In this document: positions 2,303-26,989 of the stretch, piece by piece
Layout of the letters: each line of letters begins with the position of its first letter
Position numbering within the stretch: position 1 is the first letter of the stretch
NCBI RefSeq assembly: GCF_006363815.1
Contig: NZ_RRYT01000030.1
Coordinates: forward strand, 1 to 55,084
Direction: 5' to 3'
DNA: 55,084 nucleotides
Source of the DNA: Thermomonospora catenispora
Lineage (GTDB): Bacteria; Actinomycetota; Actinomycetes; Streptosporangiales; Streptosporangiaceae
The notes under the pieces: generated by a model
The model's input: the letters and a program-made list of their open reading frames with translations, nothing else
What the model was told of the DNA's origin: nothing
The model's database searches: none
Program-made: the position numbers and the translations under genes

Positions 2303-3538
2303 TCAGGTCCCGACGGCGCCGTGGCGGACCTGCGGGTTCGGGCGGGGCGGCAGCCACGCCAGCCGGAACCGCGGGCGCGACCCGGCCGGCTGGGCGGGCA
2401 GCGGCGGCAGGGTGCGCAGCCGGGCGGCGGTGGGCCGCTTGCCGTTCAGCCGGGCGCGGACGTCGCGGTCCACCCGCAGGGCGCGCCCGAGGACCACCGT
2501 GCCGGTCCGCCGGTACGGGGACAGCCGCAGCGTGAGGAGCACCAGGGAGGTCGAGGTCAGCAGGGCGGCCAGCCAGCCGGCCTGCACGGCGGCGATGCGC
2601 AGCAGGACCGTGCGCTCACCGCCGTCGCCGGATCCGTGGCGCAGCGCGGCGACCGGGCTGACGACCATGAGGGTGGGGGCGAGCTGCGGGGACGCCACCG
2701 GGGGCAGCGCCACCTGGGGGAGGTTCGCCGCGGCGGCGGGCAGGGCCTCGTCGGGCAGCGCCGGCGGCAGCGAGGTCGGCAGCGCCGTGGCGTCGACCAC
2801 GCCGAACGCCACCGAGGCGGTCTGCGGCTTGCTCTGCGCCGCGGTGACGGTGGCGTAGACGGTGATCTGGCTGCCGGGGCGGGCGTCGGCCGGCACGTGC
2901 ACGGTGACCGGCACCGACCGGCCCTTGGAGGTGACCGTGCCGAGCTTGCACGGGACCCAGAGGGTGCACTGCTTGACGGTGAACCCGCTGCCCGACAGGG
3001 TCAGCCGCACGTCGCGGGCGGCGGTCTTGCCGGCGCGGATGTGGGTGGTGGCGGTGAGCGTGCCGCCGGGGGAGGCGACGGTGCCGGACAGCGACAGCTT
3101 GATCGCGACCGTGGAGCCGGGGGGCGGGGCGCCCGGGTCGGTGGGGTCGGTGCCCGTCGGCGGCGGCGTGGTGCCCGGGGTGGTCGGGCTGGGGCCGGGC
3201 GTGGTGGGGGAGGGGTCCGGGCTGGTCGGGTCGGGCCCGGGGCTGGTCGGGTCCGGATCCGGCGTGGTGGGCTCCGGATCGGGGTCGGGGTCGGTGGGGT
3301 CGGGCGACGGAGTGGTCGGGTCCGGGTCCGGGTCGGGCGGAGGAGTGGTGGGCTCCGGGTCGGTGGGGGTCGGCTCCTCCGGAGGCGAGGGCTCGGAGGT
3401 CGGCTCGGCGCTGGTCTCGCTGGGCGAGGCCGAAGGGTCGTCGGCGAACGCCGCCGCCGGGAGCGCCGCGTTCGTCCCAAGGATCACCGCAACGCCGAGC
3501 CCCAGCATGATCGGGGTTCCCGCCGATCGATTCGCCAC
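2303..3538 (-). CDS. Exported Pro/Asp/Thr-rich membrane-anchored protein
   Basis: 411 residues from a GTG start. Residues 1-31 are a signal peptide (hydrophobic run, likely cut after AFA). Residues 32-140 are a low-complexity Pro-Asp-Thr-Ser repeat (units like PDPTTP, PDPDPTSP) that should span the wall. Residues 140-245 look like one beta-sandwich, Ig/DUF11-like adhesion domain, with a Cys pair (QCTLWVPC). After a linker, residues 322-350 form a transmembrane helix, followed by a basic cytoplasmic tail of about 60 residues. This is the architecture of actinobacterial surface proteins held by the membrane rather than by sortase; no LPXTG is seen. Ligand and role are unknown. It is probably monocistronic. 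Confidence 0.75.
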   Translation of the reverse strand: MANRSAGTPIMLGLGVAVILGTNAALPAAAFADDPSASPSETSAEPTSEPSPPEEPTPTDPEPTTPPPDPDPDPTTPSPDPTDPDPDPEPTTPDPDPTSPGPDPTSPDPSPTTPGPSPTTPGTTPPPTGTDPTDPGAPPPGSTVAIKLSLSGTVASPGGTLTATTHIRAGKTAARDVRLTLSGSGFTVKQCTLWVPCKLGTVTSKGRSVPVTVHVPADARPGSQITVYATVTAAQSKPQTASVAFGVVDATALPTSLPPALPDEALPAAAANLPQVALPPVASPQLAPTLMVVSPVAALRHGSGDGGERTVLLRIAAVQAGWLAALLTSTSLVLLTLRLSPYRRTGTVVLGRALRVDRDVRARLNGKRPTAARLRTLPPLPAQPAGSRPRFRLAWLPPRPNPQVRHGAVGT

Positions 3539-3689: not shown

Positions 3690-4919
3690 TCACACATTCC
3701 GTGAGGCTTCCTCCCGGGCCGCCCGAGCCTGTTCCCGCAGCCACTGCGCGCGCAGCACCACTTCGATGGCGAAACGCGCATCGGGGTCGTTCAACTGGTC
3801 GCCGAGGATCTGTTCCAGTTTGCGGATCCGATAGCGCACCGTTTGCGGGTGGATGTGCAGGCGTTCGGCGATCTGCGCGGCGGTGCCGCGGGTGGTCAGC
3901 CAGGTCCGCAGCGTCTCGGTGAGCCGTTCCCGCTGATTGACGGTGAGCGCCTGCATGGGGCCCAGCCGGCGCCGGGCGAGCTGCTCGGTCAGCGCCGGGT
4001 CGGCCAGCAGCCACAGCGTCAGCAGGTGGTCGTGGCAGTAGACGATGCGTCCGCCCTCGATGACGCCGGTGACGGCCAGCTCCAGGGCCTGCCGCGCCCA
4101 GCGCAGCGAGTCGGCGGCCTGGGCCGGGTCCACGGTCAGCCCCACCGCCAGGCGGGTCTGCGGCAGCGCCGCCTCCAGCATCGCCCGGCGGCTGTCGTCC
4201 AGCGGGCCGGGGATCAGCAGGTGCGGCTCGTCGGCGGCCAGGTCGTAGAGGATGTCCTCGTCGAGGATGGTGCGGGCCGGCTGGGCGCCGGGCGGCATCG
4301 CCACCATGGTGACCTTCTCCGGCACCGGCCATTCGGCGAAGTGCGCCAGCTCGGCGATGGCCGCCTCGGGCACCGCGGGGCGGGCCAGGATGAGTCGCAG
4401 CAGCCGGCGGCGGCGCTCCTCCATCGCCCCGGCCGGGCGGGCCTTGGCCTCCAGGTAGCCTTCCAGCGACAGCGACGACAGCTCGTCGATGTAGTTGAAC
4501 AACCGGTCGGCCAGCTTGGAGATGATCGCCGCGGACACGTTGTAGCGGCTGCCGATCTTCATCACCCGCCGCCAGGCGACCTGCGCGCCGATCCGGTAGG
4601 CGGCCTGGAGGCTGTCGAGGCTGCGGCCCTCCAGGGCCTCGAACTGCCCGAGCCTCCGGCACAGCTCGTCCCGCCGCTCCAGGTCGTCGGTGACCCCGGA
4701 GATCTGGTCGACGAACGCGCTCAGCGCCCGCTCCACGCCCAGCCGCAGGGTCTGCCCGTAGGGGCCTTCGATGGGCCGGGCGTACTCGGGGATGGAACGG
4801 CGGATCTGCGCGATGATCTCGTTGGTGAGGCTGGGGAGCTCGGGCCGCATCAGCCGGGCCAGGTTCGGGGGCAGCGAGAACGGCTCCTCCAAGGTCTCCG
4901 GGCTGAGACCTTCCGTCAT
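3690..4919 (-). CDS. PucR/CdaR-type helix-turn-helix regulator (paralog 1)
   Basis: 409 residues. Residues 20-165 form a helical domain resembling the RsbRD/sensor N-terminal region of this class (IRRSIPEYA, then GRSLDSLQAAYRIGAQVAWRRVM). Residues 170-310 are a GGDEF-like/CdaR middle region (AADSLRWARQALELA). Residues 335-395 are the C-terminal HTH_30 (RGTAAQIAERLHIHPQTVRY). These proteins usually sense small molecules and activate nearby or distant genes. The 412-residue paralog upstream (start 6468) shares the architecture throughout, so they arose by duplication. The palindrome at 5078-5100 is a likely self-binding site. The target genes are unknown; exported or mce genes nearby are candidates by position only. 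Confidence 0.8.
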   Translation of the reverse strand: MTEGLSPETLEEPFSLPPNLARLMRPELPSLTNEIIAQIRRSIPEYARPIEGPYGQTLRLGVERALSAFVDQISGVTDDLERRDELCRRLGQFEALEGRSLDSLQAAYRIGAQVAWRRVMKIGSRYNVSAAIISKLADRLFNYIDELSSLSLEGYLEAKARPAGAMEERRRRLLRLILARPAVPEAAIAELAHFAEWPVPEKVTMVAMPPGAQPARTILDEDILYDLAADEPHLLIPGPLDDSRRAMLEAALPQTRLAVGLTVDPAQAADSLRWARQALELAVTGVIEGGRIVYCHDHLLTLWLLADPALTEQLARRRLGPMQALTVNQRERLTETLRTWLTTRGTAAQIAERLHIHPQTVRYRIRKLEQILGDQLNDPDARFAIEVVLRAQWLREQARAAREEASRNV

Positions 4920-5229: not shown

Positions 5230-6468
5230 TCAGGACGCGCGGAACGTCACCGCAGGCCGCTGCTCACCGGCCTGATAAAGACCTTCCCGTAGCCGCATCG
5301 CGCGCAACGCAACTTCCAACGCCAGCCGGGTGTCGGGATCCTCGAGCCGATCGCCCATGATCTCCTTGATCCGGCGGATCCGATACCGCACGGTCTGCGG
5401 ATGGACGTGCAGCCGATCGGCGATCTCGGCGGCGGTGCCCCGGCTCTCCAGCCACATCCCCAGCGTCTCCAGCAGCCGATGCCCCTGCGACAGCCCGGCC
5501 TGCTCGATCAGCCCCATGGTCAGCTCGTCGATGAGCGCCGTGTCGGCCAGCAGCCACAGCGTCATCAGATGGTCCTCGCACGACACCAGCCGCCCGTCGG
5601 CGATGATCCCGGAGCGGGTCAGCGACAGCGCCTGCCGCGCCCAGCGCAGCGAGTCGGCCGCCTCGGCGAGCGGGACGGTCAGCCCCACCGCGACCAGATG
5701 CTGCGCGGTGGCCCGCTCCAGCATCGCCCGCCGCTCCTCGGTGAACGGGCCGGGGATCAGCAGATGCGGCTCGGGCCCGCCCAGCTCCACCAGCAGGTCC
5801 TCATCCAGCGCCGAGCGGATCTCCGGCGCCTCCCCCGACAGGGCCGCCATGGTGACCTCCTCGGGCACCTTCCAGCGGGCCGCGGCGGCCAGCTCGGCGA
5901 TCGCGGCGCGCGGCACGGGCGGACGCTCCAGGATCAGCCCCAGCAGCCGGCGCCGCCGCTCCTCCAGCTCGCCCTCGAACCGGGCCATCGCGTCCTGGTA
6001 GCCGCGGCGCGACCGGTCCGACAGCATGTCCATGTAGGCGAACGCCGCGTCCGCCAGCACCAGCATCACCCCCGCCGAGAAGCGGTGCCGCCGCGCCAGC
6101 GCCATCACCCGCCGCCAGGCGAGCTGGGTGCCCGCCCGGTAGGCGGCCAGCAGGGTGTCCAGGCTGCGGCCCTGGTGGGCCTCGTACCGGCCGAGCTCCT
6201 CACAAATCTTCTGCACGCGCTCGTCGTCGGCGCGGCCGGGGTTGGCGATCCGGTCCACGAACGCCTCCAGGATCTCCTGGACGGCGCCCCGCAGCCCCAT
6301 GGAGCCCTCGCAGGAGTCCACGTCCGCGTACTCGGGGAACGAGCGGCGGATCTCGGCCTCGATCGTCCGGGCCAGACCGGGCAGCTCGGGGCGCAGCACG
6401 GCCGCCAACCTGGGCGGCGGACACGCAGGCGGCGCCGCCGTGCCGTGATGCGCGGTGCGGTAGGTCAT
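5230..6468 (-). CDS. PucR/CdaR-type helix-turn-helix regulator (paralog 2)
   Basis: 412 residues from the ATG at 6468, chosen because GAGGAGG lies about ten bases upstream and because the length then matches the 409-residue paralog. Residues 20-165 are the helical sensor domain (IRRSFPEYADVDSCEG, then GRSLDTLLAAYRAGTQLAWRRVM). The middle region carries LAEAADSLRWARQALSL, and the C-terminal HTH_30 is GTAAEIADRLHVHPQTVRYRI. The two paralogs align along their full length with conserved HTH helices and diverge most at both ends. Each has its own terminator, so they are separate transcription units. The signal and regulon cannot be read from sequence. Confidence 0.8.
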   Translation of the reverse strand: MTYRTAHHGTAAPPACPPPRLAAVLRPELPGLARTIEAEIRRSFPEYADVDSCEGSMGLRGAVQEILEAFVDRIANPGRADDERVQKICEELGRYEAHQGRSLDTLLAAYRAGTQLAWRRVMALARRHRFSAGVMLVLADAAFAYMDMLSDRSRRGYQDAMARFEGELEERRRRLLGLILERPPVPRAAIAELAAAARWKVPEEVTMAALSGEAPEIRSALDEDLLVELGGPEPHLLIPGPFTEERRAMLERATAQHLVAVGLTVPLAEAADSLRWARQALSLTRSGIIADGRLVSCEDHLMTLWLLADTALIDELTMGLIEQAGLSQGHRLLETLGMWLESRGTAAEIADRLHVHPQTVRYRIRRIKEIMGDRLEDPDTRLALEVALRAMRLREGLYQAGEQRPAVTFRAS

Positions 6469-6791
6469 CGCTGAGGCCTCCTCGTCGTAGCGCCCGCCCT
6501 GACGGCCATCCCACGGAAGGCGGCCCGGTGGCCGGCCGCTGCGGCCGGCTCCGTTTCCACCGGGGTCGCCGAGGATCACGAGCCGGAGGGTCTCGTGGGG
6601 TGGGTGGGGTGGGGTGGTAGTTGGTGACCCAGGACACATTAAAGGTAATTTAAGACGTCGCCCAGTGCACCGATGTGCGGAAATGTTGCGCTGCGGACAT
6701 GTGCGTGCACGAATGGTGCATCCGCCGAGGTCGGCTCAGCGGTGATACGACGGAACGCCTCCGGTGAGGCGAACACCGGTCACCTGGGACG

Positions 6792-7954: not shown

Positions 7955-8536
7955 ATGCGCAAGCTCGTGAGAAACGCCCTGGTCACCGGCGCGACCGCCG
8001 CTGCCGCCGTCGCCCTGGCCGCCGCCCCGGCCAGCGCCGACGCCGGCTGGATCATCACCCCCGAGGGTGACTTCACGGCCGTCAGCACCGACTCCAAGCT
8101 GACCAACGGCAGCGCCACACTGCAGTGCGCCAAGGTCACCGCCAAGGGCCAGGTCTTCAGCAGCGACTCCAACCACGTCGGCAACATCACCAGCAGCACT
8201 TGGGAAAACTGCACCGGACCGTTCGGCCTCACCTTCGGTGTGCAGCAGGTCGGTGTCTGGACCATCAACGCGAACAACCCCAACTCCAGCGGCGGGATCG
8301 ACGGCGAGATCGGCAACATCACCGCGAACATCAGCGGTCCGCTGTGCACGGCCACGGTGACCGGCAAGGCCCACGGCACCTACGACAACGCCGGCACGCT
8401 CACGATCAACGAGCCTGCGGGCGGCGACCTGGTGGTCACCAGCGCCAGCTGCCTCGGCGTCCTGAACCCCGGTGACCGGCCGAGCTTCACCGCCACCTTC
8501 GCGGTCAGCCCGGCCTTCGTCGCCACCCCCGCCTGA
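7955..8536 (+). CDS. Exported four-cysteine small protein, copy 1
   Basis: 193 residues from the ATG at 7955 (GAAAGGGA upstream). Signal peptide 1-29, predicted cut after ASA-DA. The mature part is beta-rich and low in charge, with four cysteines at about 58, 86, 131 and 166 that could make two disulfides. Hallmarks: GW-x-x-x-PEG-x-F/Y at 31-40, LQCA at 56-59, GTYDNAGTL at 141-149, SASCLG at 163-168, NPGDRP at 171-176. It is the first of three tandem copies, and the same domain forms residues 514-691 of the protein at 10938. The function is unknown; secretion and a rigid extracellular fold are inferred. A 13-bp hairpin follows the gene. Confidence 0.85.
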   Translation: MRKLVRNALVTGATAAAAVALAAAPASADAGWIITPEGDFTAVSTDSKLTNGSATLQCAKVTAKGQVFSSDSNHVGNITSSTWENCTGPFGLTFGVQQVGVWTINANNPNSSGGIDGEIGNITANISGPLCTATVTGKAHGTYDNAGTLTINEPAGGDLVVTSASCLGVLNPGDRPSFTATFAVSPAFVATPA

Positions 8537-8854
8537 CCGAGGGCACGGGCCTGACCAACTGATCGGGGCTGTGCGGCGGAACCCCTCCGCCGCACAGCCT
8601 CATCTGGCTATGGAGAAGTCGTCCCGGGAGAGGCTCTGGAGTCCGGTGCCCTCCGGTGGCTTGGGCTCATGGGTGTGAGGGTGATCGGAGCGGGGCCGGC
8701 CCGGAGAGGAAAGCAAGAGAGTTCGTACGGGGAGGCCGATGCTCGGGCCGGGTGATGGGTGCTCCCGAGGCTGATGAGCGAGGGTGACCGACCTGCGTGC
8801 CGTCGTCTCTCCAGGAAACCCGGAAACTCAGGGGACCTCCCGGAGAGGAGCGCC
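8537..8854. other. 318-bp spacer between copies 1 and 2
   Basis: It contains the terminator of copy 1. From about 8630 the sequence is strongly similar to the spacer before copy 3 (about 9475-9704), including CCGATGCTCGGGCCGGGTGA-like and CCCGAGGCTGATGAG blocks. The 850-bp duplication unit therefore included the upstream region. Confidence 0.6.
8567..8599 (+). terminator. Terminator of exported small protein copy 1
   Basis: A 13-bp perfect inverted repeat (8567-8579, 8587-8599) with a 7-base loop, 30 bp after the stop codon. Confidence 0.7.
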
Positions 8855-9436
8855 ATGCGCAAGTTTCTACGACGTGTTCTGACCCTCGTTGCGGTTGTGG
8901 CCGCCGCCATCGGTCTGGCTGGAACTCCGGCCAACGCCGATGCCGGCTGGAACGTCAGCCCTGAGGGCTCCTACGCGGCTATCAGCACCGACTCCAGGCT
9001 GATCAACGGCAGTGGCATGTTGCAGTGCGCCATGGTCATCGCCTCGGGCCACGTCGCCAGCAGCACCGATAGCCAGGTCGGTACCGTCACTGACAACGCC
9101 TGGAGCAACTGCAGCGCGACATTCGGCTTCGTTTTCAGCGTGCAGCCGGCGGGTACCTGGACCATCCATGCGCTCGGCATCAACTCCAGCGGCTGGGTCG
9201 ACGTCGAGATCCGCAGTGTCAATGCGACCATCAGCAGCCCGCTGTGCTACGCCACGGTGACCGGCTCGGTCCGCGGCACCTACGACAACGCCGGTACGCT
9301 CAGGCTCTACGAGCCCCCGGGTGGCAACCTGGTGATCTCCAGCGCCAGCTGCCTGGGCCGCCTGAACCCCGGTGACCGGCCAGGCTACTCCGCCACCTTC
9401 ACGGTCTCTCCAGACCTCACTATCACTCCCGCCTGA
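8855..9436 (+). CDS. Exported four-cysteine small protein, copy 2
   Basis: 193 residues, exactly the length of copy 1, from the ATG at 8855 with GGAGAGGAG upstream. Signal peptide 1-29 (cut after ANA-DA). The mature domain keeps GWNVSPEG, the four cysteines, GTYDNAGTL, SASCLG and NPGDRP. Similarity to copy 1 is clear over the whole mature part; to the broken copy 3 it is closer, also at the DNA level including the upstream region. It may be co-transcribed or have its own promoter in the duplicated spacer. Function unknown. Confidence 0.85.
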   Translation: MRKFLRRVLTLVAVVAAAIGLAGTPANADAGWNVSPEGSYAAISTDSRLINGSGMLQCAMVIASGHVASSTDSQVGTVTDNAWSNCSATFGFVFSVQPAGTWTIHALGINSSGWVDVEIRSVNATISSPLCYATVTGSVRGTYDNAGTLRLYEPPGGNLVISSASCLGRLNPGDRPGYSATFTVSPDLTITPA

Positions 9437-9704
9437 TCGAGGGAACGACCCCGTCTCCTCATGGAGGAGCCGTCTCGGGAGACGCTCATGGGCCTGGTGT
9501 CCTTCGGTGGCCCGGGCTCATGAGCGTGAAGGTGACCTCGGTGGGGTCGATCCGGAATGGAAAGCAGGAGAGTTCGTGTGGGGAGGCCGGTGCTCGGGCC
9601 GGGTGATGTGCGTTCCCGAGGCTGATGAGTGAGTATGGCCGACCTGTGCATCGTCGTTTCCCCAGGAAGCCGGAAGTTCAAGGGATTTCTCGGAGAGGAG
9701 TGTC

Positions 9705-10286
9705 ATGCGTAGATTTTTGTGACGTGTTCTGGCCGTCGGCGCGGTTGTGGCCGCCGCCATCGGTCTGGCTGGAACTCCGGCCAACGCCGATGCCGGCTGG
9801 AACGTCAGCCCCGAGGATCCCTTCACGGCCGTCGGTGCCGACCCAGAGATGATCAACCGCAGTGCCATAACGCACTGCGAGACGGTCACCGCCAGCGGCG
9901 GCGTCTTCAGCAGCGACTCCAACCACGTCGGTAACATCACCAGCAGCAACTGGAACCGCTGCGAATGGTGGCTCGGCCTAGCCTGCAATATAGTGCAGAT
10001 CGGCACCTAGACCGTCAACGCGAACAACCCCAACGCTAGCGGTGGGATCGACGTTGAGATCCGCAACGTCAACGCGACCATCAGTGGCCCATTCTGCGAC
10101 GTCACGCTGACCGGCACACTCTGCGGCACCTACGACAACACCGGCACGCTTACGATCAACGAGCCCGAGGGCGGCAACCTGATGGTCACTTCCGCCAGCT
10201 GCTGGGGCATCTTTAACTCCGGTGACCGACCGGGTCTCTCCGTCACCCTCACGATGACCCCGTCCATCGTCGTTACCCCCGCCTGA
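9705..10286 (+). pseudogene. Exported four-cysteine small protein, copy 3, two nonsense mutations
   Basis: The reading frame from the ATG at 9705 to the TGA at 10284-10286 is exactly 193 codons, as in copies 1 and 2, with no net indel. It is interrupted by TGA at codon 6 (9720-9722, CGA in copy 2) and TAG at codon 102 (10008-10010, the conserved Trp of VWTI/TWTI). The ribosome site GGAGAGGAG is kept. Several conserved residues have also drifted, including the expected fourth-Cys neighbourhood (SASCWG). It is a recent duplicate of copy 2, 850 bp away, that has lost function, unless readthrough or sequencing error explains both stops. Confidence 0.85.
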
Positions 10287-10312
10287 TCTAAAACGCCGCT
10301 TTGGTGTCTCTG

Positions 10313-10355
10313 ACCGGGTTTGCACGGCGGTAGAGCCCCGCCGTGCAAACCCGGT
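10313..10355 (+). terminator. Strong hairpin after the pseudogene
   Basis: An 18-bp perfect inverted repeat (10313-10330, 10338-10355) with a 7-base loop. It is still intact although the gene before it is broken. Confidence 0.75.
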
Positions 10356-10766
10356 CGTCCACACAGAGCTGAAGTGCGTGGATGACCAGAGAGGTGGTCA
10401 CCGTATGCAGGGTGCCAGCGAGGCTGGTTTGGGGCAACACCTCCTGCCTGCGCGGAGCACGGCGACCGGGACGTCGGGTTCTTCTCGGTTGCAGCGACAG
10501 CGGTCGTCTGAACTCGGAGGCGGTTCCCCGGCCGATCTCATGCCCAACAGAATCCCGGCATGGGGGAAGAAGCGTCGAGCCCGGGCTAGGCGGGATGGGG
10601 CCGGAGCAGTGCGGGGCAGAGCGCCAGGAGTGACGGTGGAGCTGTCGTGGAGTACGCATGGACTGAGCAGGTGCCGAGGCGGGATTGTCAACTGGTGATA
10701 GCGGGTCGATCGGTTCGCGGTTCGATGTTCGGGATTGCTTGCACGGTGGGGGGTGCGGACGTAGCG

Positions 10767-10778
10767 TACCGGCCAGTA
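10767..10778. promoter_or_regulatory. TAC-N6-GTA operator-like site, also found before mce
   Basis: TACCGGCCAGTA is palindromic except for one pair. With flanks it reads GTAGCGTACCGGCCAGTA, then ATCAT. The copy at 14905-14930 reads GTAGCGTACCCGCCAGTA, then ATCAT at the same spacing. It is about 160 bp upstream of the exported-protein start. Confidence 0.5.
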
Positions 10779-10937
10779 AGAATCATGGTCCCGTCGCGCC
10801 TCGGTGGGATACCGGTGTGGAACAGGCGGCTCGGTTCGGCGGGGGAACGGATCGGGCGGCCTGCCGCCGGTATGCGTGAGGGTTTCCGGACAACGGCATC
10901 GGACGGTCACCGGCCGGCTCAGAACAGGTAGTCGCAA

Positions 10938-13013
10938 ATGAAAATAAGCGTGAACTGGGCGGCCCGCCGGCGGGCGTGGCCTGCTGCGATCGGTGGGCTC
11001 GTGCTGACGGCGGGACTGCTGTCGGGGTCCGGCGCGGTGGCCGCCGCGCGGGACATCGACGTCAGCCTGCGCTACCAGTGCCCTCGGGGCGATGAACTCC
11101 AGGTGGTCACTCTGCGGGTCCGTTCCAGCCTCCCGGAGACGGCCGCCGCGGGAAAGCCGATCACGCCGGGCAAGGCGACCGTCACCGCCACCATTCCGGC
11201 GGGCGCCCTGGCGGAGCTGGCCAAGGCCGGAGCGGCCACCGTGACCGGCTCCATGAGCCCGACCCTGCTGCTCGACCCCTCGCCGACCGGCAGGGTCGAT
11301 CAGCCGAGTTTGGAGATCGCGTCGGCGGCGTTGCGTGAGGGCGAGGATCTGACGGTGACGGCGTCCGGTGCGTTGCCGACGGTGACCCCTCAGGCCGGTG
11401 GTCCGCTGGTCTTCTCCGCGGGGCAGTTGGCGATCGAGCTGCGGGGGCGCAAGAGCGATGGGGCCGCCACCGCTCCTGCTTCCGTGTCGTTGACCTGTTC
11501 TCCGGCTCTGGGGCAGAACGCCACTTTGGGGACGGTCTTCGTGGAGGGTGCGGGGCAGACGCCGAAGCGGCAGACGACGCCACAGCCCGGCGCCTCGCAG
11601 CCTGAGACCGGGACACGGGCACAGCCCACATCCGGAGGACCGTTCCCAGAAAAGCCCGACGAGCTGAGTGACTTCTGCCCGGATCCGATCGACCTTCGCC
11701 CTCCCAAGCCTGAGTACCTCCCACCGACCGAGGACTTCCCGGACATCGAGTACGTCGGTGATCGTGCTGACCCGGTCAACCACCCCGGCTGGACGGAGTT
11801 CTTCAACGACAGAGGCGATCACGGGTGTGCCCTGCTCTATGGTTACTCCAACGCCAACAAGCCTGGTGGGGCGGCGCCGGTGAACGGGACGGCTTATCTC
11901 CGTCTCGTGATACGCTTTGTGTTCAACGGCCTCCCAGATATCAACTACGTTAGCCAATACTCGATTGGAAAGTTCTATCCGCAGACTTCCCGGGCCTCGT
12001 TCCTGACGTATGGGTTCATGCCGAGCACGGCCACCATGGAGATCATCCCCGTAGGGGAAGTGGACATCCTGGGAGTGGGTGCATTCAATGAGCAGGCGCC
12101 CGGTGCGCGACCGCAGAAGACGGTCGCCTACAGCAAGGTCATGATCCGCTTGAAGGATGTCGAGGTCAATGGGACTCCGCTGGATGTGGGTGACAACTGT
12201 CGCACCGCGCGGGTGATCGACCTGAAGCTGGAAGGCCGGAGCGACACCAACCCCTCCTACACGGTGCAGGGTGGGGGTGTTATGCAGGGATTCATCGACA
12301 TCCCTGAGTTCACCGGATGCGGGGTCGGGGAGGACCTGGATCCGCTGTTGACGTCATCGGTGTCGGGGAAGCGCAACTACGTGCGACTGGTCCAGGGGCC
12401 GGTTTGTAACACCAGTGGGTTCCCTGAATACCCGCAGGACGAAGCGCAGATGCCGTGTCCGATGCAGCGGTTCGGCTGGAAGGCGGAGCCGGCCGGGGAG
12501 TTCACCGCCACGGCGGTGGACGGTCTGCGGCTGGTCGGTGACAAGACCTCTATCACTTGCGCGTCTGCCGTAATGCGCGCAAGTATGAGAGAATTTGCTG
12601 CTAGTGGTGCCAACTTTTTCCAAGGTGTGAACTTCACTGGGTCAGGATGCACGGGTGAAGGTGAGCTGAGCACGCCGTTCAGCATCGACATCAGGGCTGG
12701 CTCCATTGATCTGCTCACCTTGTCGCCTGACGGACGATGGGTTCGTAGTAGGCTGGGCAATGTCTTCTCGGAAGGGGTGTCTATCAGCGACACCTGCTCG
12801 TTCGATCTGCTGACCACGTTGTCAATTGGATTGAGCTACGACAACGTGACTGGCAGATTCGAGCTTAATCCAGAAGTTTTGGCAGGAAAAAATGCGCTGC
12901 CGCTCCAGTTCGGCTGGAAAAAAGAGTGCGGTATTCCGCACGCGAACGGCGATGAGCTCAAACTGTACGGCACCTTCGTTCCGGACAAGCGGATCAAGAT
13001 AACCAAGCCGTAG
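10938..13013 (+). CDS. Three-domain exported protein (DUF6801-like plus two locus-specific domains)
   Basis: 691 residues. Signal peptide 1-37 (Arg-rich start, cut near AVAAA). Residues 38-190 resemble DUF6801 (SLRYQCPRGDELQVVTLRVR, then ATVTATIPAGALAELAKAGA). A Pro/Thr-rich linker covers about 200-240. Residues 305-470 match the single-domain protein at 13429 (VMIRLKDVEVNGTPLDVGDNC against VTLKLSNLKVAGIPTPVGDKC, then GGGVMQGFIDIPEFTGC against GGTLTGTYSIPKFEHC). Residues 514-691 match the small proteins at 7955 and 8855: W-x-x-x-P-x-GEFTA, four cysteines in the same order (ITCAS, SGCTG, DTCSF, KECGI), and an NGDE...GTFVP ending. The middle and C-terminal coding stretches are lower in GC than the neighbouring genes. 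Role unknown; probably cell-surface or secreted, possibly co-regulated with mce through the shared site at 10767. Confidence 0.85.
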   Translation: MKISVNWAARRRAWPAAIGGLVLTAGLLSGSGAVAAARDIDVSLRYQCPRGDELQVVTLRVRSSLPETAAAGKPITPGKATVTATIPAGALAELAKAGAATVTGSMSPTLLLDPSPTGRVDQPSLEIASAALREGEDLTVTASGALPTVTPQAGGPLVFSAGQLAIELRGRKSDGAATAPASVSLTCSPALGQNATLGTVFVEGAGQTPKRQTTPQPGASQPETGTRAQPTSGGPFPEKPDELSDFCPDPIDLRPPKPEYLPPTEDFPDIEYVGDRADPVNHPGWTEFFNDRGDHGCALLYGYSNANKPGGAAPVNGTAYLRLVIRFVFNGLPDINYVSQYSIGKFYPQTSRASFLTYGFMPSTATMEIIPVGEVDILGVGAFNEQAPGARPQKTVAYSKVMIRLKDVEVNGTPLDVGDNCRTARVIDLKLEGRSDTNPSYTVQGGGVMQGFIDIPEFTGCGVGEDLDPLLTSSVSGKRNYVRLVQGPVCNTSGFPEYPQDEAQMPCPMQRFGWKAEPAGEFTATAVDGLRLVGDKTSITCASAVMRASMREFAASGANFFQGVNFTGSGCTGEGELSTPFSIDIRAGSIDLLTLSPDGRWVRSRLGNVFSEGVSISDTCSFDLLTTLSIGLSYDNVTGRFELNPEVLAGKNALPLQFGWKKECGIPHANGDELKLYGTFVPDKRIKITKP

Positions 13014-13428
13014 TCGCCGCTGGGTGACCGTTCTGTCCGGTGCGCCCGGAGGGCTCTCGCGAGGGCTCCCGGGCGCGCCGGGATTCGGTGCGTCTGGAGC
13101 CTTCACTGCGCCGGTCCCTCGGAGTGTGCCGGGGCCGTTCACCGGCGGTGGTGGAAGGGTTCCCAGGTGGAGCAGGGTGTGGTCCCGTCATGGACTCAAC
13201 GGGCGACAATTGGGGGTGCCGAGATCATTCTCTGGTGATAAATAATCGGGATTTCTGGGCCGGCGGTCAGATGTGCGGGCGGTGTGTCTTGTCCTCGCCG
13301 TGTGGGCGGGGGTAGTTTCCGGGGTAATTGCGGAGGACGTTCGGCGGACCCGGTTCGGGGGCTTGCCGGGTGCGGATATTCGCCGCTGTCCGCTGAATTC
13401 CGCTTGGCGGATTTCCAAGGAGGAACCG
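13014..13428. other. 415-bp gap upstream of the single-domain exported protein
   Basis: No supportable gene. Around 13225-13250 an AT-richer stretch (CTGGTGATAAATAATCGGGA) is the likeliest promoter region. A canonical ribosome site AAGGAGG ends the gap (13417-13423). Confidence 0.4.
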
Positions 13429-14067
13429 ATGCCCCACCAGACCGGCTCATCGTGGATGCGCAGGACGGCGGCCGCGGCGGCCGTCGGGCTGGCGGCCACC
13501 GCCGGGGTCGTCGCCATGTCGGGGACCGCGCATGCGGCCACCCTGCGGGTGGACTATCCGGTGACCGGCACGACCCACCTGGCCTCGGTCAACTCGACCA
13601 TGTCGCTGGGGCCCGGCGTGCTGAAGTCGGAGCTGGACCTGACCACCGCTGATCTGACCGCCGACCTGGAGCTGCCGCCGGCGCACGGGGAGTTCAAGCA
13701 GTTCGGGGTCATCCCGGTCAGCGTCACCACGACGTTCATCCCCGAGGGCAAGACGGTCGGCAAGATCGATCAGGCCACCGGCAAGGTGACCTCCACCTCG
13801 AAGGTCACGTTGAAGCTCAGCAACCTCAAGGTGGCCGGCATCCCGACGCCGGTGGGCGACAAGTGCAAGACCAAGGAGCCGGTGACGATCACGGTGACGT
13901 CCGGTGATGATTGGAACGTCCTCACCGGCGGCACCCTCACCGGCACCTACTCCATCCCCAAGTTCGAGCACTGCCTGCTGGCCACCCCGCTGATCAACCT
14001 GATCGTCCCGGGCGGCGGCAACACCATCACCCTCAAGCTCGGCACCCCCACCGTTCCCTCTTCCTGA
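13429..14067 (+). CDS. Exported single-domain protein related to the middle domain of its neighbour
   Basis: 212 residues from the ATG at 13429, chosen for the AAGGAGG six bases upstream. Signal peptide 1-36 (RRTAAAAAVGLAATAGVV, cut after AHA). The mature part is beta-rich. SKVTLKLSNLKVAGIPTPVG, then DKCKTKEPVTITV and GGTLTGTYSIPKFEHC, align with residues 400-460 of the 691-residue protein, including two shared cysteines. The whole looks like a small extracellular beta-sandwich with one disulfide. It probably has its own promoter and ends at the 13-bp hairpin at 14095. Function unknown; homologous actinobacterial proteins are hypothetical. Confidence 0.8.
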   Translation: MPHQTGSSWMRRTAAAAAVGLAATAGVVAMSGTAHAATLRVDYPVTGTTHLASVNSTMSLGPGVLKSELDLTTADLTADLELPPAHGEFKQFGVIPVSVTTTFIPEGKTVGKIDQATGKVTSTSKVTLKLSNLKVAGIPTPVGDKCKTKEPVTITVTSGDDWNVLTGGTLTGTYSIPKFEHCLLATPLINLIVPGGGNTITLKLGTPTVPSS

Positions 14068-14674: not shown

Positions 14675-15003
14675 TCGGTAACTGGTTCGGTCAAGCCCGA
14701 TGGAAGCGCGCCGGTCGCCCGGCGGGGGAAAGGCCGTGTGGGCGCGGGCGGTCGCGACCTGTCGACGACCTGATCGTGACCGTTCCGCGACCTGGATCTG
14801 CGCACCCGAGAACAACGCCGCAGAGCCGCTTATCACTCGATGACAATAAAATCCGGCCTGCTATTTTGGTTAGTCCATCTGCTTGAGCCGCGGCCGTCGC
14901 GCAAGTAGCGTACCCGCCAGTAGTGATCATAGGGTGCGCGTCGCCGCACTACATATTCGGGGGCCATCAGGCGCGGCGCGGCAGCGAATCGCAAGCGGGT
15001 GAG
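14675..15003. other. Promoter region of the mce operon
   Basis: This 329-bp gap contains an AT-rich block (14838-14870: GACAATAAAATCC, then GCTATTTTGG) that could supply -35/-10 elements, followed by the TAC-N6-GTA element at 14911. The long frame starting at 14923 runs through this element and is not used as the start. Confidence 0.5.
14911..14922 (+). promoter_or_regulatory. TAC-N6-GTA operator-like site before the mce operon
   Basis: TACCCGCCAGTA, flanked by GTAGCG and followed by an ATCAT block, matches the arrangement at 10761-10785. It is about 82 bp upstream of the ATPase start, overlapping the probable promoter zone. The half-site symmetry suits a TetR-type lipid regulator (inference). 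Confidence 0.5.
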
Positions 15004-16140
15004 ATGGGCGTCGAAGTGGTCGTCGAAGGGCTGTCCAAGTCCTTCGGCCAGCAGCAGATCTGGCAGGATGTCACGCTCACCCTGCCGGCCGGCGAGGTCA
15101 GCGTGATGCTGGGCCCCTCGGGCACCGGCAAGACCGTATTCCTCAAGTCACTGATCGGGCTGATCAAGCCGGAACGCGGCCGGGTGCTGATCAATGGCGT
15201 CGACATGGTCAACAGCCCCGAACGGCGGATCAACGAGATCCGCAAGATGTTCGGGGTCATGTTCCAAGACGGCGCGTTGTTCGGCTCGCTCAACCTCTTC
15301 GAGAACGTGGCGTTCCCGCTCCGGGAGCACACCAAGAAGAAAGAGCACGAGATCCGCCGGATCGTGCTGGAGAAGATGGAGATGGTCGGCCTCGCCGGGG
15401 CCGAGGACAAGCTGCCCGGCGAGATCTCCGGCGGTATGCGCAAACGGGCCGGCCTGGCCCGGGCGCTGGTGCTCGACCCGGAGATCATCCTGTGCGACGA
15501 GCCGGACTCCGGGCTGGACCCGGTCCGCACCGCCTACCTGTCGCAACTGCTCATCGATCTGAACGCGCAGATCGACGCGACCATGCTGATCGTCACCCAC
15601 AACATCGACATCGCCTCCAAGGTGCCGGACAACATGGGCATGTTGTTCCGCCGCAACCTGGTGATGTTCGGCCCTCGCGAGATGCTGCTGACCAGCGAGG
15701 AGCCGGTGGTGGCGCAGTTTTTGCGCGGACGGCGGCGCGGGCCGATCGGGATGTCGGAGGAGAAGGACGCGGCCACCCTGGCCGCCGAGGCCGCCTCCCC
15801 GCTCCCCGGGGACGAGGACGATGAGCCGTTCAGGATCCCCCGGCAGCTGCGGCCCAGCCCCGGCATGCCGCCGCGCAAGGCCGTGGCCCGCCGCCGCGAA
15901 CGGGTCCTGTCGATGCTGCACACCCTGCCGCCGCAGGCCCAGCAGGCGGTCCTGGAGAGCCTGAAGTACGACGCCGGCCTCCCGGCCGGAGCGCCGGCGG
16001 GCCAGGCCGGGCAGGCCGCGGCGCCGCCGCAGGGGGCGCAGCAGCCGCAGATCGTCCCGCCGCCGGGCGGTCCCCTCCCGCCGCAGGGGATGCAGCCGCC
16101 CGGGGGACCGGCCGGACCGGCCGCCGGGGGGCCGCGATGA
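15004..16140 (+). CDS. mceG: Mce transporter ATPase (MceG/MlaF type)
   Basis: 378 residues from the ATG at 15004. It is the ABC ATPase that powers Mce lipid import at the cytoplasmic membrane with the two YrbE permeases. Walker A GPSGTGKT at 37-44, Q-loop near 88, signature ISGGM at 141-145, Walker B EIILCDEP at 160-167, H-loop in VTHNID. Unlike M. tuberculosis, where mceG lies apart from the mce loci, this gene heads the operon. The core ends near residue 255; a further 120 residues form a charged segment (ATLAAEAASPLPGDEDDEPF) and a Pro/Gly/Gln-rich tail. MceG proteins carry regulatory C-terminal extensions, but this tail is long and low complexity. It overlaps the next gene by ATGA. Confidence 0.9.
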   Translation: MGVEVVVEGLSKSFGQQQIWQDVTLTLPAGEVSVMLGPSGTGKTVFLKSLIGLIKPERGRVLINGVDMVNSPERRINEIRKMFGVMFQDGALFGSLNLFENVAFPLREHTKKKEHEIRRIVLEKMEMVGLAGAEDKLPGEISGGMRKRAGLARALVLDPEIILCDEPDSGLDPVRTAYLSQLLIDLNAQIDATMLIVTHNIDIASKVPDNMGMLFRRNLVMFGPREMLLTSEEPVVAQFLRGRRRGPIGMSEEKDAATLAAEAASPLPGDEDDEPFRIPRQLRPSPGMPPRKAVARRRERVLSMLHTLPPQAQQAVLESLKYDAGLPAGAPAGQAGQAAAPPQGAQQPQIVPPPGGPLPPQGMQPPGGPAGPAAGGPR

Positions 16141-16925
16141 CCGCCCCCGCCCCCGCCGTCCCCGGCACCGGGGCGCTGCGCGAGACCGGCAAGCTGTTCG
16201 CGCTGGCCGGGGCCGTGCTCTCCGGCATGTTCAAGCGGCCGTTCCAGGTCCGCGAGCTGATCGAGCAGTTCTGGTTCATCGCCAGCGTCACCATCCTGCC
16301 GACCGCGCTGGTGTCCATCCCCTTCGGCGCGGTCATCGCCCTGCAGGTCGGCTCGCTCACCCAGCAGCTCGGCGCCCAGTCCTTCACCGGCGCCGCCAGC
16401 GTGCTGGCGGTCATCCAGCAGGCCAGCCCGCTGATCGTGGCGCTGCTGATCTCCGGGGCGGGCGGCTCGGCGATCTGCGCCGACATCGGCTCCCGCAAGA
16501 TCCGCGAGGAGATCGACGCGATGACCGTGATGGGCGTCTCGCCCATCCAGCGGCTCATCGTCCCCCGGGTGCTGGCCTGCATGGGCGTCGCCGTGCTGCT
16601 CAACGGGCTGGTCTCGGTGGTCGGCGTGGCCGGCGGCTACTTCTTCAACGTGATCATGCAGGACGGCACGCCGGGCGCCTACCTGGCCAGCTTCTCGGCC
16701 CTGGCCCAGCTCCCCGACCTGTACATCAGCGAGATCAAGGCGCTGATCTTCGGCTTCATCGCCGGGGTGGTGGCCGCTCACCGAGGGCTGAACCCGCGCG
16801 GCGGTCCCAAGGGGGTCGGGGACGCGGTCAACCAGTCGGTGGTGATCGCGTTCCTGCTGCTGTTCTTCGTCAACCTGGTGCTCACGGCCATCTACCTGCA
16901 GGTCGTGCCGCCCAAGGGAAGCTGA
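16137..16925 (+). CDS. yrbE1A: Mce permease YrbEA
   Basis: 262 residues, an MlaE/YrbE-family integral membrane permease with about five or six helices. It contains the conserved loop EEIDAMTVMGVSPIQRLIVPR (residues 122-142) that contacts the ATPase. With YrbEB it forms the membrane channel to which the hexameric MCE proteins dock. It overlaps the ATPase gene (ATGA) and is followed seven bases later by yrbEB. Length is normal for the family. Confidence 0.92.
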   Translation: MTAPAPAVPGTGALRETGKLFALAGAVLSGMFKRPFQVRELIEQFWFIASVTILPTALVSIPFGAVIALQVGSLTQQLGAQSFTGAASVLAVIQQASPLIVALLISGAGGSAICADIGSRKIREEIDAMTVMGVSPIQRLIVPRVLACMGVAVLLNGLVSVVGVAGGYFFNVIMQDGTPGAYLASFSALAQLPDLYISEIKALIFGFIAGVVAAHRGLNPRGGPKGVGDAVNQSVVIAFLLLFFVNLVLTAIYLQVVPPKGS

Positions 16926-16932: not shown

Positions 16933-17772
16933 ATGACCGTCATCAACGGCAGGCTCGGCCGGCAGCTCGACCGCCGGCTGAGCTGGTTGGACACGCTGGG
17001 CGACCAGCTCCTGTTCTATCTGCGGGCACTGGCCTGGACCCCCCGGGCGGTGCTGCGCTACACCCGCGAGATCCGCCGGCTGCTGGCCGAGGTCAGCTTC
17101 GGCAGCGGCGCGCTCGGCATCATCGGCGGCACCATCGGCGTGATGGTGGCGATGACCCTGTTCACCGGCACCGTGGTGGGCCTGCAGGGGTACGCGGCGC
17201 TCAACCAGATCGGCACCAGCGCCTTCACCGGGTTCGTGTCGGCCTACTTCAACACCCGGGAGATCGCCCCGCTTGTGGCCGGGCTGGCGCTCAGCGCCAC
17301 CGTCGGCGCCGGGTTCACCGCCCAGCTCGGCGCGATGCGGATCAACGAAGAGGTCGACGCGCTGGAGGGCATGGGCGTCTCCAGCATCCCCTACCTGGTC
17401 ACCACCCGCATCGTGGCGGGCTTCGTGGCGATCATCCCGCTGTACGGGATGGGGCTGCTGTCGTCCTACTTCGCCTCCCGGTTCGTCACCACCGTCTACA
17501 ACGGGCAGTCGGCCGGCACCTACGACCACTACTTCGGGCTGTTCCTCTCGCCGGTGGACGTGGTCTGGTCGTTCGGCAAGGTGCTGGTGTTCAGCGTGAT
17601 GGTGATCCTGGCGCACTGCTACTACGGCTACCGGGCGGTCGGCGGACCGGCCGGGGTGGGCGTGGCGGTCGGCCGCGCGGTCCGCACCGCGATCGTGCTG
17701 ATCAGCGTGACCGACTTCTTCCTGAGCCTGGCGATCTGGGGCGCGACCACGACCGTGAAGGTGGCGGGCTGA
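16933..17772 (+). CDS. yrbE1B: Mce permease YrbEB
   Basis: 279 residues, the second YrbE/MlaE permease. The conserved cytoplasmic loop is NEEVDALEGMGVSSIPYLVTTR (about residues 137-158). The N-terminal 30 residues are amphipathic (RRLSWLDTLGDQLLFYLRAL). The pairing of two distinct YrbE proteins is standard in actinobacterial mce loci. The stop overlaps mceA's start as TGATG. Confidence 0.92.
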   Translation: MTVINGRLGRQLDRRLSWLDTLGDQLLFYLRALAWTPRAVLRYTREIRRLLAEVSFGSGALGIIGGTIGVMVAMTLFTGTVVGLQGYAALNQIGTSAFTGFVSAYFNTREIAPLVAGLALSATVGAGFTAQLGAMRINEEVDALEGMGVSSIPYLVTTRIVAGFVAIIPLYGMGLLSSYFASRFVTTVYNGQSAGTYDHYFGLFLSPVDVVWSFGKVLVFSVMVILAHCYYGYRAVGGPAGVGVAVGRAVRTAIVLISVTDFFLSLAIWGATTTVKVAG

Positions 17773-19055
17773 TGGCGCGGAGCACGACCATGACCACCGT
17801 CGGCCGCAGGCTGCTGGGACTGGTGTTCCTGCTGGTGCTGGCGCTGCTGCTGTGGCTGTCGGTGGCGATCTACAACAAGAAGTTCTCCCCGGCGGACCTG
17901 GTCACCCTGCGCACCGGGGCGACCGGCAACGAGATGCACCGCAACGCCGACGTCAAGCTGCGCGGCGTGGTGGTCGGCCAGGTCCGCGAGATCGAATCCA
18001 CCGGCGACGGGGCGCGGCTGACGCTGGCGTTCAAACCCGGGATGCTCCGGCACGTCCCCGCCAACGTCACCGCCCAGATGCTGCCGACCACGCTGTTCGG
18101 CCAGCGGTACGTGGCGCTGATCCCGCCGGCCCAGCCCTCTCCCGAGCCGCTGCGGCCCGGCGCCGTGATCACCCAGGACCGCAGCCAGAACGCCATCGAG
18201 CTGGAACAGGTCCTGGAGAACGTGCTGCCGCTGCTGACCGCGGTCAAGCCGGAACGGCTGGCGGCCACCCTCACCGCCCTGGCCGACGCGCTGGAGGGAC
18301 GGGGCGAGGAGCTCGGCGAGACACTGGTGACGCTGGACGCGCACCTGAAGAAGTTCAACCCCCACCTCCCGCAGATGAACCGCGACCTGAAGGAGCTGGT
18401 GCGGGTCGGACACGCCTACGCCGAGGCCGCCCCCGACATCCTCGACGCGCTGGAGGACTTCGCGATCACCAGCCGCACCCTGGTCGACCAGCGCGCCGAG
18501 CTGAGCGAGCTGTACGGGACGGTCACCTCCACCTCCCGCTACCTGCGGGACTGGCTGATCGCCCACCGGGACCACCTGATCCTGCTGTCGGACCACAGCC
18601 GGCCGACGCTGGAGCTGCTGGCCCGCTACTCGCCGGCGTTCCCCTGCACGCTGCGGATGCTGCGGGACTTCGTGCCCGCCATGGACCGGGCCCTGGGCAA
18701 GGGCACCGACAGGCCCGGCCTGTCGGTCACCGTCAAGGTCGCCCCCTCCCGCGGCCGCTACCTGCCCGGACGGGACCGTCCCGTCTACAACGCCTCCGGT
18801 GGACCGCGCTGCTACTCGGTCCCCTACGACGGCGTCGGCACCGTCCCCGCCGGGAACCAGCTCACCTCGGCCTCCGCCGCCGACCCCGCCGGCGTCGACC
18901 GGCAGCGGCTCGGCCCCCCCAACTCCCCGGAGGAGAACCAGATCCTCAATGAACTGCTGGCCCCGCAGGTCGGCAAGCCCCACGACGAGCTCCCCGACTG
19001 GAGCAGCGTGCTGGTCGGCCCCGTCTACCGCGGAACGGAGGTGCGGCTGAAGTGA
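17772..19055 (+). CDS. mceA: MceA, lipid-shuttle subunit
   Basis: 427 residues. One N-terminal transmembrane helix (15-36, LLGLVFLLVLALLLWLSVAI) anchors it. The MCE/MlaD beta-barrel domain covers about 40-120 (MHRNADVKLRGVVVGQVREI, then TLFGQRYVALI), followed by a long helical region to about 300 that builds the tunnel through the periplasm-like space. The C-terminal 100 residues contain a Cys pair (PRCYS and earlier PCTLRM). It belongs with MceB-F in one heterohexameric complex that carries lipids or sterols inward. The substrate is not evident. Confidence 0.9.
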   Translation: MARSTTMTTVGRRLLGLVFLLVLALLLWLSVAIYNKKFSPADLVTLRTGATGNEMHRNADVKLRGVVVGQVREIESTGDGARLTLAFKPGMLRHVPANVTAQMLPTTLFGQRYVALIPPAQPSPEPLRPGAVITQDRSQNAIELEQVLENVLPLLTAVKPERLAATLTALADALEGRGEELGETLVTLDAHLKKFNPHLPQMNRDLKELVRVGHAYAEAAPDILDALEDFAITSRTLVDQRAELSELYGTVTSTSRYLRDWLIAHRDHLILLSDHSRPTLELLARYSPAFPCTLRMLRDFVPAMDRALGKGTDRPGLSVTVKVAPSRGRYLPGRDRPVYNASGGPRCYSVPYDGVGTVPAGNQLTSASAADPAGVDRQRLGPPNSPEENQILNELLAPQVGKPHDELPDWSSVLVGPVYRGTEVRLK

Positions 19056-20122
19056 GACGCCGAAGCATCGCCGGCCCGCTGACCAAGTCGATCGTGTTCA
19101 TCGTGGTGACCGTGGTGGCCACCGCCGTGCTGGCGGTCAGCATCGCCAACACCGGCGTCGGGAACACCGTCTCCTACAAGGCGCGGTTCACCGACACCAC
19201 CGGCCTGATCGTCGGCGACAGCGTCCGGATCGCGGGCGTGCGGGTCGGCCAGGTCGAGAAGATCCGGGTGGTGGACCGCAGGCTCGCCGAGGTCACCTTC
19301 AGCGTCGAACGCGACCGCAAGCTGCCGGCCACCACCACCGCCACGATCAAGTACCTGAACATGGTCGGGCAGCGGTTCATCGAACTGGGCCGCGGTGAGG
19401 GGCAAGCCAGCGGGACCACCGCCTTCATGAGGCCCGGCGACACCATCCCCGAACAGCGCACCACCCCCGCGCTGGACCTGACCGTGCTGTTCAACGGGTT
19501 CCAGCCGCTGTTCCAGGCGCTGTCGCCCAACGAGGTCAACAAGCTGGCCGGCGAACTGATCGCGGTCTTCCAGGGCGAAGGCGCCACCGTGGAGTCGCTG
19601 ATCGCCACGGTCGGCTCGCTGACCACCACGCTGGCCAACAAGGACCAGGTCATCGGGCAGGTCATCGACAACCTCACCACGGTGATCGAGACGATCAACG
19701 ACCGTGAGGGCCAGTTCGTCCAGCTGATCACCACGCTGCGGCGGCTGGTGCACGGCTTCGCGGCCGACCGGAAGGCGTTCGGCGAGGCCATCACCGCGCT
19801 CGGCGACCTGGCCGACACCACCGCCGGCCTGCTGCGCGACTCCCGCCACCCGATCGCCCAGGACATCCGGCAACTGGACCGGCTGTCGCGGAACCTCCTC
19901 GACCACGAGGCCACCGTGGAGACCTTCCTGCAGCGCCTGCCGGTGAAGCTGCAGACGATCGGGCGGGTCGCCTCCTACGGCTCGTGGCTCAACTTCTACC
20001 TGTGCGAGGCCAAGGTGACGGGCGCGGAGTGGAACACCGACGACACCGGCCTGCTGGCGCCCACCCCGTCCGGCCCGCCGCCCACCGGGCTCCCGCTGGT
20101 CGACCACCCGAGGTGCAAGTGA
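19052..20122 (+). CDS. mceB: MceB
   Basis: 356 residues from a GTG overlapping mceA's stop (GTGA). Transmembrane helix about 10-30 (VFIVVTVVATAVLAVSIANT). MCE domain about 38-115 (FTDTTGLIVGDSVRIAGVRV, then LNMVGQRFIELGRG). Helical tunnel region to about 320 with coiled-coil-like heptads, ending in a short Pro-rich tail with Cys (LCEAK and HPRCK). A second subunit of the Mce complex. The stop overlaps mceC (TGATG). Confidence 0.9.
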   Translation: MRRRSIAGPLTKSIVFIVVTVVATAVLAVSIANTGVGNTVSYKARFTDTTGLIVGDSVRIAGVRVGQVEKIRVVDRRLAEVTFSVERDRKLPATTTATIKYLNMVGQRFIELGRGEGQASGTTAFMRPGDTIPEQRTTPALDLTVLFNGFQPLFQALSPNEVNKLAGELIAVFQGEGATVESLIATVGSLTTTLANKDQVIGQVIDNLTTVIETINDREGQFVQLITTLRRLVHGFAADRKAFGEAITALGDLADTTAGLLRDSRHPIAQDIRQLDRLSRNLLDHEATVETFLQRLPVKLQTIGRVASYGSWLNFYLCEAKVTGAEWNTDDTGLLAPTPSGPPPTGLPLVDHPRCK

Positions 20123-25433: not shown

Positions 25434-25435
25434 CC

Positions 25436-26392: not shown

Positions 26393-26413
26393 AGCCCGAA
26401 CGAGGAGCACACC

Positions 26414-26968: not shown

Positions 26969-26989
26969 CCCCTGGAGAGGACGACACCG

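Follow-up and report, generated by a model that had tools for sequence, protein, structure and literature searches.

What might two kinds of small exported protein, and a longer exported protein that fuses both, be doing side by side in an actinobacterial genome? The question is raised by a locus of Thermomonospora catenispora (contig NZ_RRYT01000030.1; genome 5.35 Mb), in which four open reading frames (ORFs) encode two paralogous proteins of 193 aa (A and B), a 691-aa fusion and a 212-aa protein. The whole stretch of 55,084 nt that was analysed is called the window below. A sequence-only reading had placed the four ORFs, which were all confirmed at its coordinates; it had overlooked a decayed third copy of the small gene and an adjoining mce operon. 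The link of the exported families to Mce was found to be strong. Our reading, which we hold with somewhat more belief than doubt, is that the locus encodes secreted accessory proteins of the Mce lipid importer that bind or pass on lipids.

Domain families and their fusion

The 691-aa protein had been described as a DUF6801-like domain followed by a middle domain like the 212-aa protein and a C-terminal domain like the 193-aa proteins, and this architecture was borne out by Pfam, BLASTP, profile searches and hhalign. The N-terminal domain is a member of DUF6801 (PF20611), with 62.4 bits over residues 55-198 against a Pfam cut-off of 26 bits, and only one gene of its own genome lies above this cut-off. 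The 212-aa protein and the small proteins gave nothing above cut-off in Pfam or NCBIfam. The C-terminal family is called GEF here, a name of our own taken from its G-E-F-T-A start.

As single sequences, the 212-aa protein matched residues 351-487 of the 691-aa protein (BLASTP E=3e-13, 31% identity), and the small proteins matched its C-terminus marginally (E=0.001 and 0.005). A profile made from single-domain GEF proteins alone matched nine of nine fusion C-termini, with an E of 8.6e-10 over residues 513-687 for the fusion in the window. The profile from fusion C-termini recovered 12 of 18 small proteins, among them the two of the window (7.8e-10 and 3.7e-6), and hhalign gave 99.1% for the two sets. 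For the middle domain, the single proteins yielded a profile that matched 16 of 20 fusions (window fusion, 1.1e-15), the profile from fusion middle domains matched all six single proteins, and hhalign gave 99.8%. The matches were thus reciprocal for both domains. In a shuffled control of 7040 proteins, three profiles had no match and the fusion-middle-domain profile reached a best E of 4.5e-4. Since the membership of the test sets was drawn from iterated profiles in which single-domain and fusion sequences were mixed, the test was softened for the small proteins. Moreover, the four cysteine columns 58/86/131/166 of the small proteins aligned with 541/571/620/664 of the fusion, so that the cysteine order is the same, as had been claimed. 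Single-domain families and a protein that fuses them are therefore indeed encoded in one locus.

By sequence, the three domains are separate families and not one repeated fold. The possibility that they are copies of one fold was rejected, with hhalign at or below 4.2% for every cross pair; kinship of DUF6801 to the middle or GEF domain was not detectable by hhalign (at or below 1.0%). In the GEF-domain tree, 13 of 16 fusion GEF domains formed one clade (0.93), and the window fusion was placed elsewhere (0.46, weak support), so that a single fusion event and several events are not distinguishable. Some longer proteins, of 871 to 1099 aa, carry DUF6801 twice together with a middle domain (loci L159, L177, L141 and L185:575-3457).

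Structures were then predicted. From the modelling alignment of the triple fusions, L167, whose start is incomplete, and a row of L150 were dropped at first; L124 and the second row of L159 followed, which left 74 of the 76 rows prepared. The small-protein alignment left out one L138 row and sequences shorter than 181 aa. The AlphaFold model of small protein A had a pLDDT of 90.9, rising to about 97 in the mature region, and is an all-beta antiparallel meander with 13 listed strands, some of them very short. The model of the 691-aa protein had a mean pLDDT of 70.9, with DUF6801 mostly above 90, the middle domain mostly at 60-95 and the GEF part at 40-80. In the small protein, hydrophobicity follows the alternation typical of beta strands (z of 4.0-4.9 relative to shuffled columns). 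This is compatible with both outer-membrane and ligand-binding barrels and does not separate inside from outside.

The weak Foldseek matches of the small protein were OmpA, NspA, OmpX and Ail on the one hand and YceI-like proteins, DynF and HtaB on the other. Ail had the highest TM of the small outer-membrane barrels, 0.52 of the target at E 0.77, outer-membrane barrels in the Protein Data Bank (PDB) were not significant (E at least 0.06), and a predicted phage barrel from a viral library gave E 0.025 and TM 0.57. The fusion weakly matched TRAP, ApaG, beta-glucosidase domains, which we take to be Ig-like, and outer-membrane barrels such as OmpW (TM 0.49, E 0.22).

The export calls were made with our own heuristic for signal, lipobox, transmembrane (TM) stretch and LPXTG on 215 domain-bearing proteins. 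A signal-like stretch was present in 192 of them, and anchors were rare: a lipobox in two, a TM-like stretch within the mature region in seven and an LPXTG-like motif in two. The families are thus probably secreted by the Sec route, apparently unanchored and probably soluble.

Recurrence beside mce operons and a shared upstream element

The best 80 of 87 loci fetched from actinomycetes by a middle-domain motif are referred to as the named loci. As many as 73 of the 80 carried yrbE/mce genes (blastp 1e-20), and 75 had any mce or mas label (1e-6). Among the seven without yrbE/mce, the L138 contig has MlaE 13-17 kb off, and L160 is a 5.6-kb contig bearing mas-like genes. PucR-like genes were counted in 61 named loci, a single GEF gene in 52 and a DUF6801-middle gene in 75; the triple fusion occurred in nine, all titled Actinomadura. 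The usual Streptomyces order was PucR (on the opposite strand), GEF, DUF6801-middle, mkl, yrbE and mce. Elsewhere the exported genes were divergent from mkl (L140, L144, L152, L176, L179 and L180) or stood after the mas genes (L154, L156, L160, L162, L164, L167, L169, L174 and L178). The genera with exported families beside mce were Streptomyces, Actinomadura, Thermomonospora, Kitasatospora, Actinacidiphila and others.

Two genome samples, from the phylum (296 genomes) and the order (150 genomes), were chosen independently of the motif. The middle domain was found in five phylum genomes, all of them among the 48 with MlaE, and each of the five has a middle-domain copy within about 6 kb of MlaE; DUF6801 matches occurred in seven. 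In the order sample, all 16 genomes with a middle domain were among the 43 with MlaE (hypergeometric 1.9e-10, relatedness ignored), and GEF was found in 14 genomes, 12 of which have MlaE. Weak matches in G014 and G101 did not hold up when the GEF profile was applied and were set aside. The survey of related genomes that the sequence-only reading had proposed thus showed families that recur together and beside mce. In the T. catenispora genome itself, eight MlaE matches lie as pairs on four contigs, and the exported families are found at this contig alone.

The exported cluster directly precedes the mce operon, and a PucR pair flanks its other side. When upstream regions were compared, a common promoter/operator-like pattern, TTGnnC, 17 bases, TAGCGTACC[G/C]GCCAGTA..(A/G)ATCAT, was found before the 691-aa gene and before mkl. 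With up to three mismatches, the 17-base core had exactly two matches in the window against 0.12 expected, and the 25-base pattern had exactly two in the 5.35-Mb genome, at these same two places, against one for the reversed-pattern control. The closest relative carries the element at both places with no mismatch. Two further genomes of the genus have it before mkl with no mismatch, and one of them has it before the fusion gene with four mismatches. That the PucR pair binds this element is a guess. A wider operator search with an iterated matrix gave 27 of 209 upstream regions against two expected, with mixed site types; it was set aside and is not relied on because the matrix was trained on the same regions that it scored.

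The adjoining genes qualify as an Mce lipid-import locus, with two YrbE/MlaE permeases, a MlaD-bearing mce gene and an Mkl-type ATPase in line (Table 1). The ATPase was named Mkl by position and from the literature, and its start at 15004 matches the start in the relative L082. The Pfam scan covered the first of the six mce genes, and the remaining five were named by position and mutual similarity. The name Mas for the four genes that follow was taken from PMC1810536; two of them were scanned by Pfam, one with a weak SnoaL_4 match and the other with none. Among the matches listed at 1e-5, no DUF6801, middle or GEF gene was paired with a mas-like gene; all paired with genes of these same kinds in the window. 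The decayed third copy has 58% identity to copy A and lies in tandem with the other small genes.

Table 1. Features of the window, with position, strand and the evidence for each
Feature	Position	Strand	Evidence or detail
AurF-like diiron oxygenase	105-1094	-	PF11583
411-aa exported-looking protein	2303-3538	-	No Pfam family above cut-off
PucR-type regulator 1	3690-4919	-	HTH_30 PF13556 8e-22
PucR-type regulator 2, paralogue of regulator 1	5230-6639	-	HTH_30 3.5e-22
Small exported protein A, single GEF domain, 193 aa	7955-8536	+	ORF, profile, AlphaFold model
Small exported protein B, paralogue of A	8855-9436	+	58% identity to A
Decayed third copy of small gene	9705-10285	+	TGA at codon 6, TAG at codon 102
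Element before 691-aa gene	10739-10786	+	TTGCAC, 17 nt, TAGCGTACCGGCCAGTAAGAATCAT (10762-10786)
691-aa exported fusion	10938-13013	+	DUF6801 (~41-202), middle domain (~297-490), GEF domain (~513-688)
212-aa exported protein, single middle domain	13429-14067	+	
Element before mkl	14883-14930	+	TTGAGC, 17 nt, TAGCGTACCCGCCAGTAGTGATCAT (14906-14930)
Mkl/MceG-type ABC ATPase	15004-16140	+	PF00005 2.5e-28; ORF open from 14923, ATG 15004
Two YrbE permease genes	16137-16925, 16933-17772	+	MlaE PF02405 1.3e-66 and 3.3e-61
Six genes in place of mceA-F	17772-24900	+	First: MlaD 2.3e-13, Mce4_CUP1 5.3e-81
Four mas-like genes after mce genes	24885-27730	+	Position, recurrence

Some further genes were observed near the exported ones. 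The 411-aa protein of the window has counterparts near the PucR pair in several relatives. Another family, exported-looking and about 270-320 aa long, is called P300 here. In 43 of the 80 named loci it has a member no more than three genes away from a domain gene, frequently placed between DUF6801-middle and mkl or in a tandem array that follows the fusion (for example, L104:11440-12468 and L089:11743-15447). It was not labelled in the window, and two P300 proteins scanned had no Pfam match at E 0.01; kinship to the middle domain was considered but was not significant (hhalign 13.6% against fusion middle domains, cysteines colinear). A protein O-mannosyltransferase-like gene lies near DUF6801 genes in seven loci (L098:3439-5145, L100, L114, L124, L129, L150 and L157), with Pfam PMT in the one scanned, and a cupin/JmjC-like gene recurs near DUF6801 genes in six.

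A possible role in lipid import

In the reading preferred here, accessory proteins of the Mce importer would be drawn from three independent exported families, DUF6801, the middle domain and the four-Cys GEF, used singly and fused. They would leave the cell by their N-terminal signal and be released or only loosely wall-bound. The neighbouring PucR regulators probably co-regulate the exported genes and the importer via the shared promoter element. Outside the membrane, the proteins would most likely bind lipids (sterols, fatty acids or similar) or dock at the outer end of the needle; the bound lipid would then be handed to the tunnel of the Mce needle and so travel inward. The sequence-only reading had spoken of one extracellular system of unknown role. 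The first part of this claim gained from the signal-like N-termini without anchors, the joint recurrence and the element shared with the mce operon; the second part did not stand as it was, since the role can be narrowed to an accessory one for the Mce lipid importer, with a secretory lipase as neighbour at other loci. A bolder version of the same reading is only tentative, and we doubt it rather more than we believe it. It holds that non-mycolate actinobacteria have a modular extracellular relay for lipid capture, built of secreted, disulphide-stapled beta proteins of three kinds (GEF proteins, middle-domain proteins and DUF6801 fusions), co-induced with Mce via the shared operator, which brings lipase-released lipids to the mouth of the Mce needle and supplies the "additional unknown factors" of the literature discussed below.

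A secretory lipase (PF03583) was identified in clusters with DUF6801-middle genes in 11 of 11 proteins scanned (L099, L100, L101, L114, L153, L157, L159, L177, L184, L186 and L187, of which L101 and L153 are the same place), and three of these lipases sit in clusters apart from mce. The mce-free clusters inspected were L184 with L185, L186, and L187. In each of them, PucR genes and several DUF6801-middle genes are joined by a secretory lipase and a small lipoprotein-like gene, and two of the three (L184 and L187) also have an AurF-like oxygenase, as does the window. L188 holds a lone DUF6801-middle gene without PucR, lipase, lipoprotein-like or AurF-like gene. The lipase-bearing mce-free clusters favour lipid use as the common theme.

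Other explanations were weighed against an accessory role. An unlikely one, though the least so of these, is that the products are cell-surface or matrix proteins (for adhesion, hyphal sheath or envelope stability) which are made together with Mce in a lipid-rich growth state and handle no substrate. Proteins that are beta-rich, variable and often multi-copy, with signal-like N-termini and conserved cysteines, would suit such a role, and so would the existence of clusters without mce and the weak likeness between the small protein and OmpA/NspA/OmpX/Ail barrels. However, wall-sorting or membrane anchors are rare, and the regular place directly before mkl in Streptomyces loci, together with the element shared with mkl, argues for one functional unit. 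It is improbable that the proteins are helpers of secreted lipases (in folding, interfacial binding or product removal) with a link to mce that is indirect through lipid use. The lipases in DUF6801-middle clusters, three of them away from mce and with PucR there too, agree with this idea, but only 5 of the 80 named loci have a lipase at most three genes from a domain gene, far fewer than those with yrbE/mce, and a scan of 13 window genes, as far as position 19,055, gave no match to PF03583.

The chance is very small that the neighbourhood reflects descent only, with genes carried along beside mce but functionally unconnected to it. All the relatives belong to the actinomycetes and are not independent, and 28 of the 62 middle-domain matches of the order sample were not near a listed MlaE. 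Nevertheless, the link outlasts rearrangement, being kept before mkl, divergent from mkl and after the mas genes, and an element is shared. We give the least credence of all to the idea that the exported proteins act as sensors of extracellular lipid which report to the PucR regulators. It would account for PucR in 61 of the 80 loci and in all three mce-free clusters inspected; however, a receptor or membrane-spanning partner was not identified, and PucR proteins reside in the cytoplasm, where they are usually regarded as sensors of intracellular ligands.

Several observations count against the accessory role itself. No Foldseek match at E of 0.001 or below was obtained with the small-protein or the fusion model, and a search for sequence relatives in the PDB found none, the best E being 0.0059 for a viral VP8* domain. 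Of 101 stretches searched, only 7 contained the upstream element when five mismatches were allowed, and it is therefore a feature of the genus, not general to such loci. DUF6801 occurred in two phylum genomes without MlaE (G267 and G443), both below cut-off, and GEF matches occurred in the order genomes G059 and G072 without MlaE, where our own GEF profile missed both in the fetched stretches. By hand count, a listed MlaE stands no more than 20 kb from at least 34 of the 62 middle-domain matches of the order sample, and no middle-domain match of G095 and G103 is linked to MlaE among the matches listed. Conversely, genomes with nine or more MlaE matches, G187, G199 and G223 among them, have no middle domain, and Mce in general therefore does not need it.

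Selection bears on the accessory role from both sides. The ratio (w) of nonsynonymous (dN) to synonymous (dS) substitution was obtained by simple Nei-Gojobori counts in GC-rich DNA, so that single values are rough. In 14 locus pairs (Streptomyces, Actinacidiphila and Actinomadura), the exported domains were under purifying selection, with a median w of 0.36 for GEF (n=8), 0.38 for DUF6801 (n=14) and 0.21 for the middle domain (n=14), compared with 0.07 for mkl; this purifying selection counts in favour of the role. Small protein A compared with its closest relative (L082) had a dN of 0.178, a dS of 0.147 and a w of 1.2; the other window values were 0.86 for the 212-aa protein, 0.29 for mkl and 0.19-0.43 for the fusion domains. 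Hence dN exceeds dS in small protein A, unlike in mkl, yrbE, PucR and the fusion. The small copies in the window change fast, and the w of 1.2 together with the decayed sister copy suggests that they may be weakly constrained here, which again tells against the accessory role.

If the exported proteins are accessory to Mce, they bear on one particular step. The preprint on the Mce1 structure (PMC9882608) leaves open how lipids arrive at the far end of the needle, entry being direct or via additional unknown factors. Two of the three exported families have no Pfam or NCBIfam model. Since the proteins are probably soluble and their relatives occur in ordinary soil Streptomyces, the extracellular Mce step can now be tested by deleting the genes and assaying binding, and the small protein is predicted to be well folded.

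Comparison with known systems

Pfam lists DUF6801 without a known function; the family takes in the N-terminal domain of the 691-aa protein and leaves out the 212-aa and small proteins. Not one of the 5.39 million papers searched mentioned DUF6801, nor was a description of the exported families found in this literature, though Streptomyces mce work may contain an earlier mention. Substrate-binding proteins (SBPs) of ABC importers would share the proposed role, the delivery of an extracellular ligand to an ABC importer. No Pfam SBP family matched, however, and the models are all-beta, unlike the two-lobed fold of SBPs.

YceI-like and other ligand-binding barrels rank among the top Foldseek matches of the small protein and have a beta-barrel-type meander of similar size, but the small protein has no sequence match to them, and the structural matches (3q34, 2x32 and 6ubl) were not significant (E at least 0.14, TM 0.24-0.45). 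The exported proteins differ from outer-membrane barrels in their four conserved cysteines. No outer membrane is known for the host actinobacteria.

The closest known system is the Mce importer (mkl/mceG, yrbEA-B, mceA-F and mas), an operon of which directly follows the exported cluster in the window. The available part of PMC1810536 (Casali & Riley 2007) describes actinobacterial Mce loci with Mkl upstream and Mas proteins downstream and compares the Mce proteins themselves to SBPs; exported genes before mkl are not mentioned in that part. In PMC3087709, SCO2423 of S. coelicolor, numbered beside mkl (SCO2422), is tabled as a "secreted protein" among GlnR targets. Compared by gene number and table label only, this listing fits the picture of an exported partner. 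The same paper reports that the promoter region of Sven_0812 (/SCO2423) of S. venezuelae was enriched with GlnR, a possible regulatory lead. Mce operons are thus well known, and what is new here is that such a locus comes with a set of modular exported proteins of its own.

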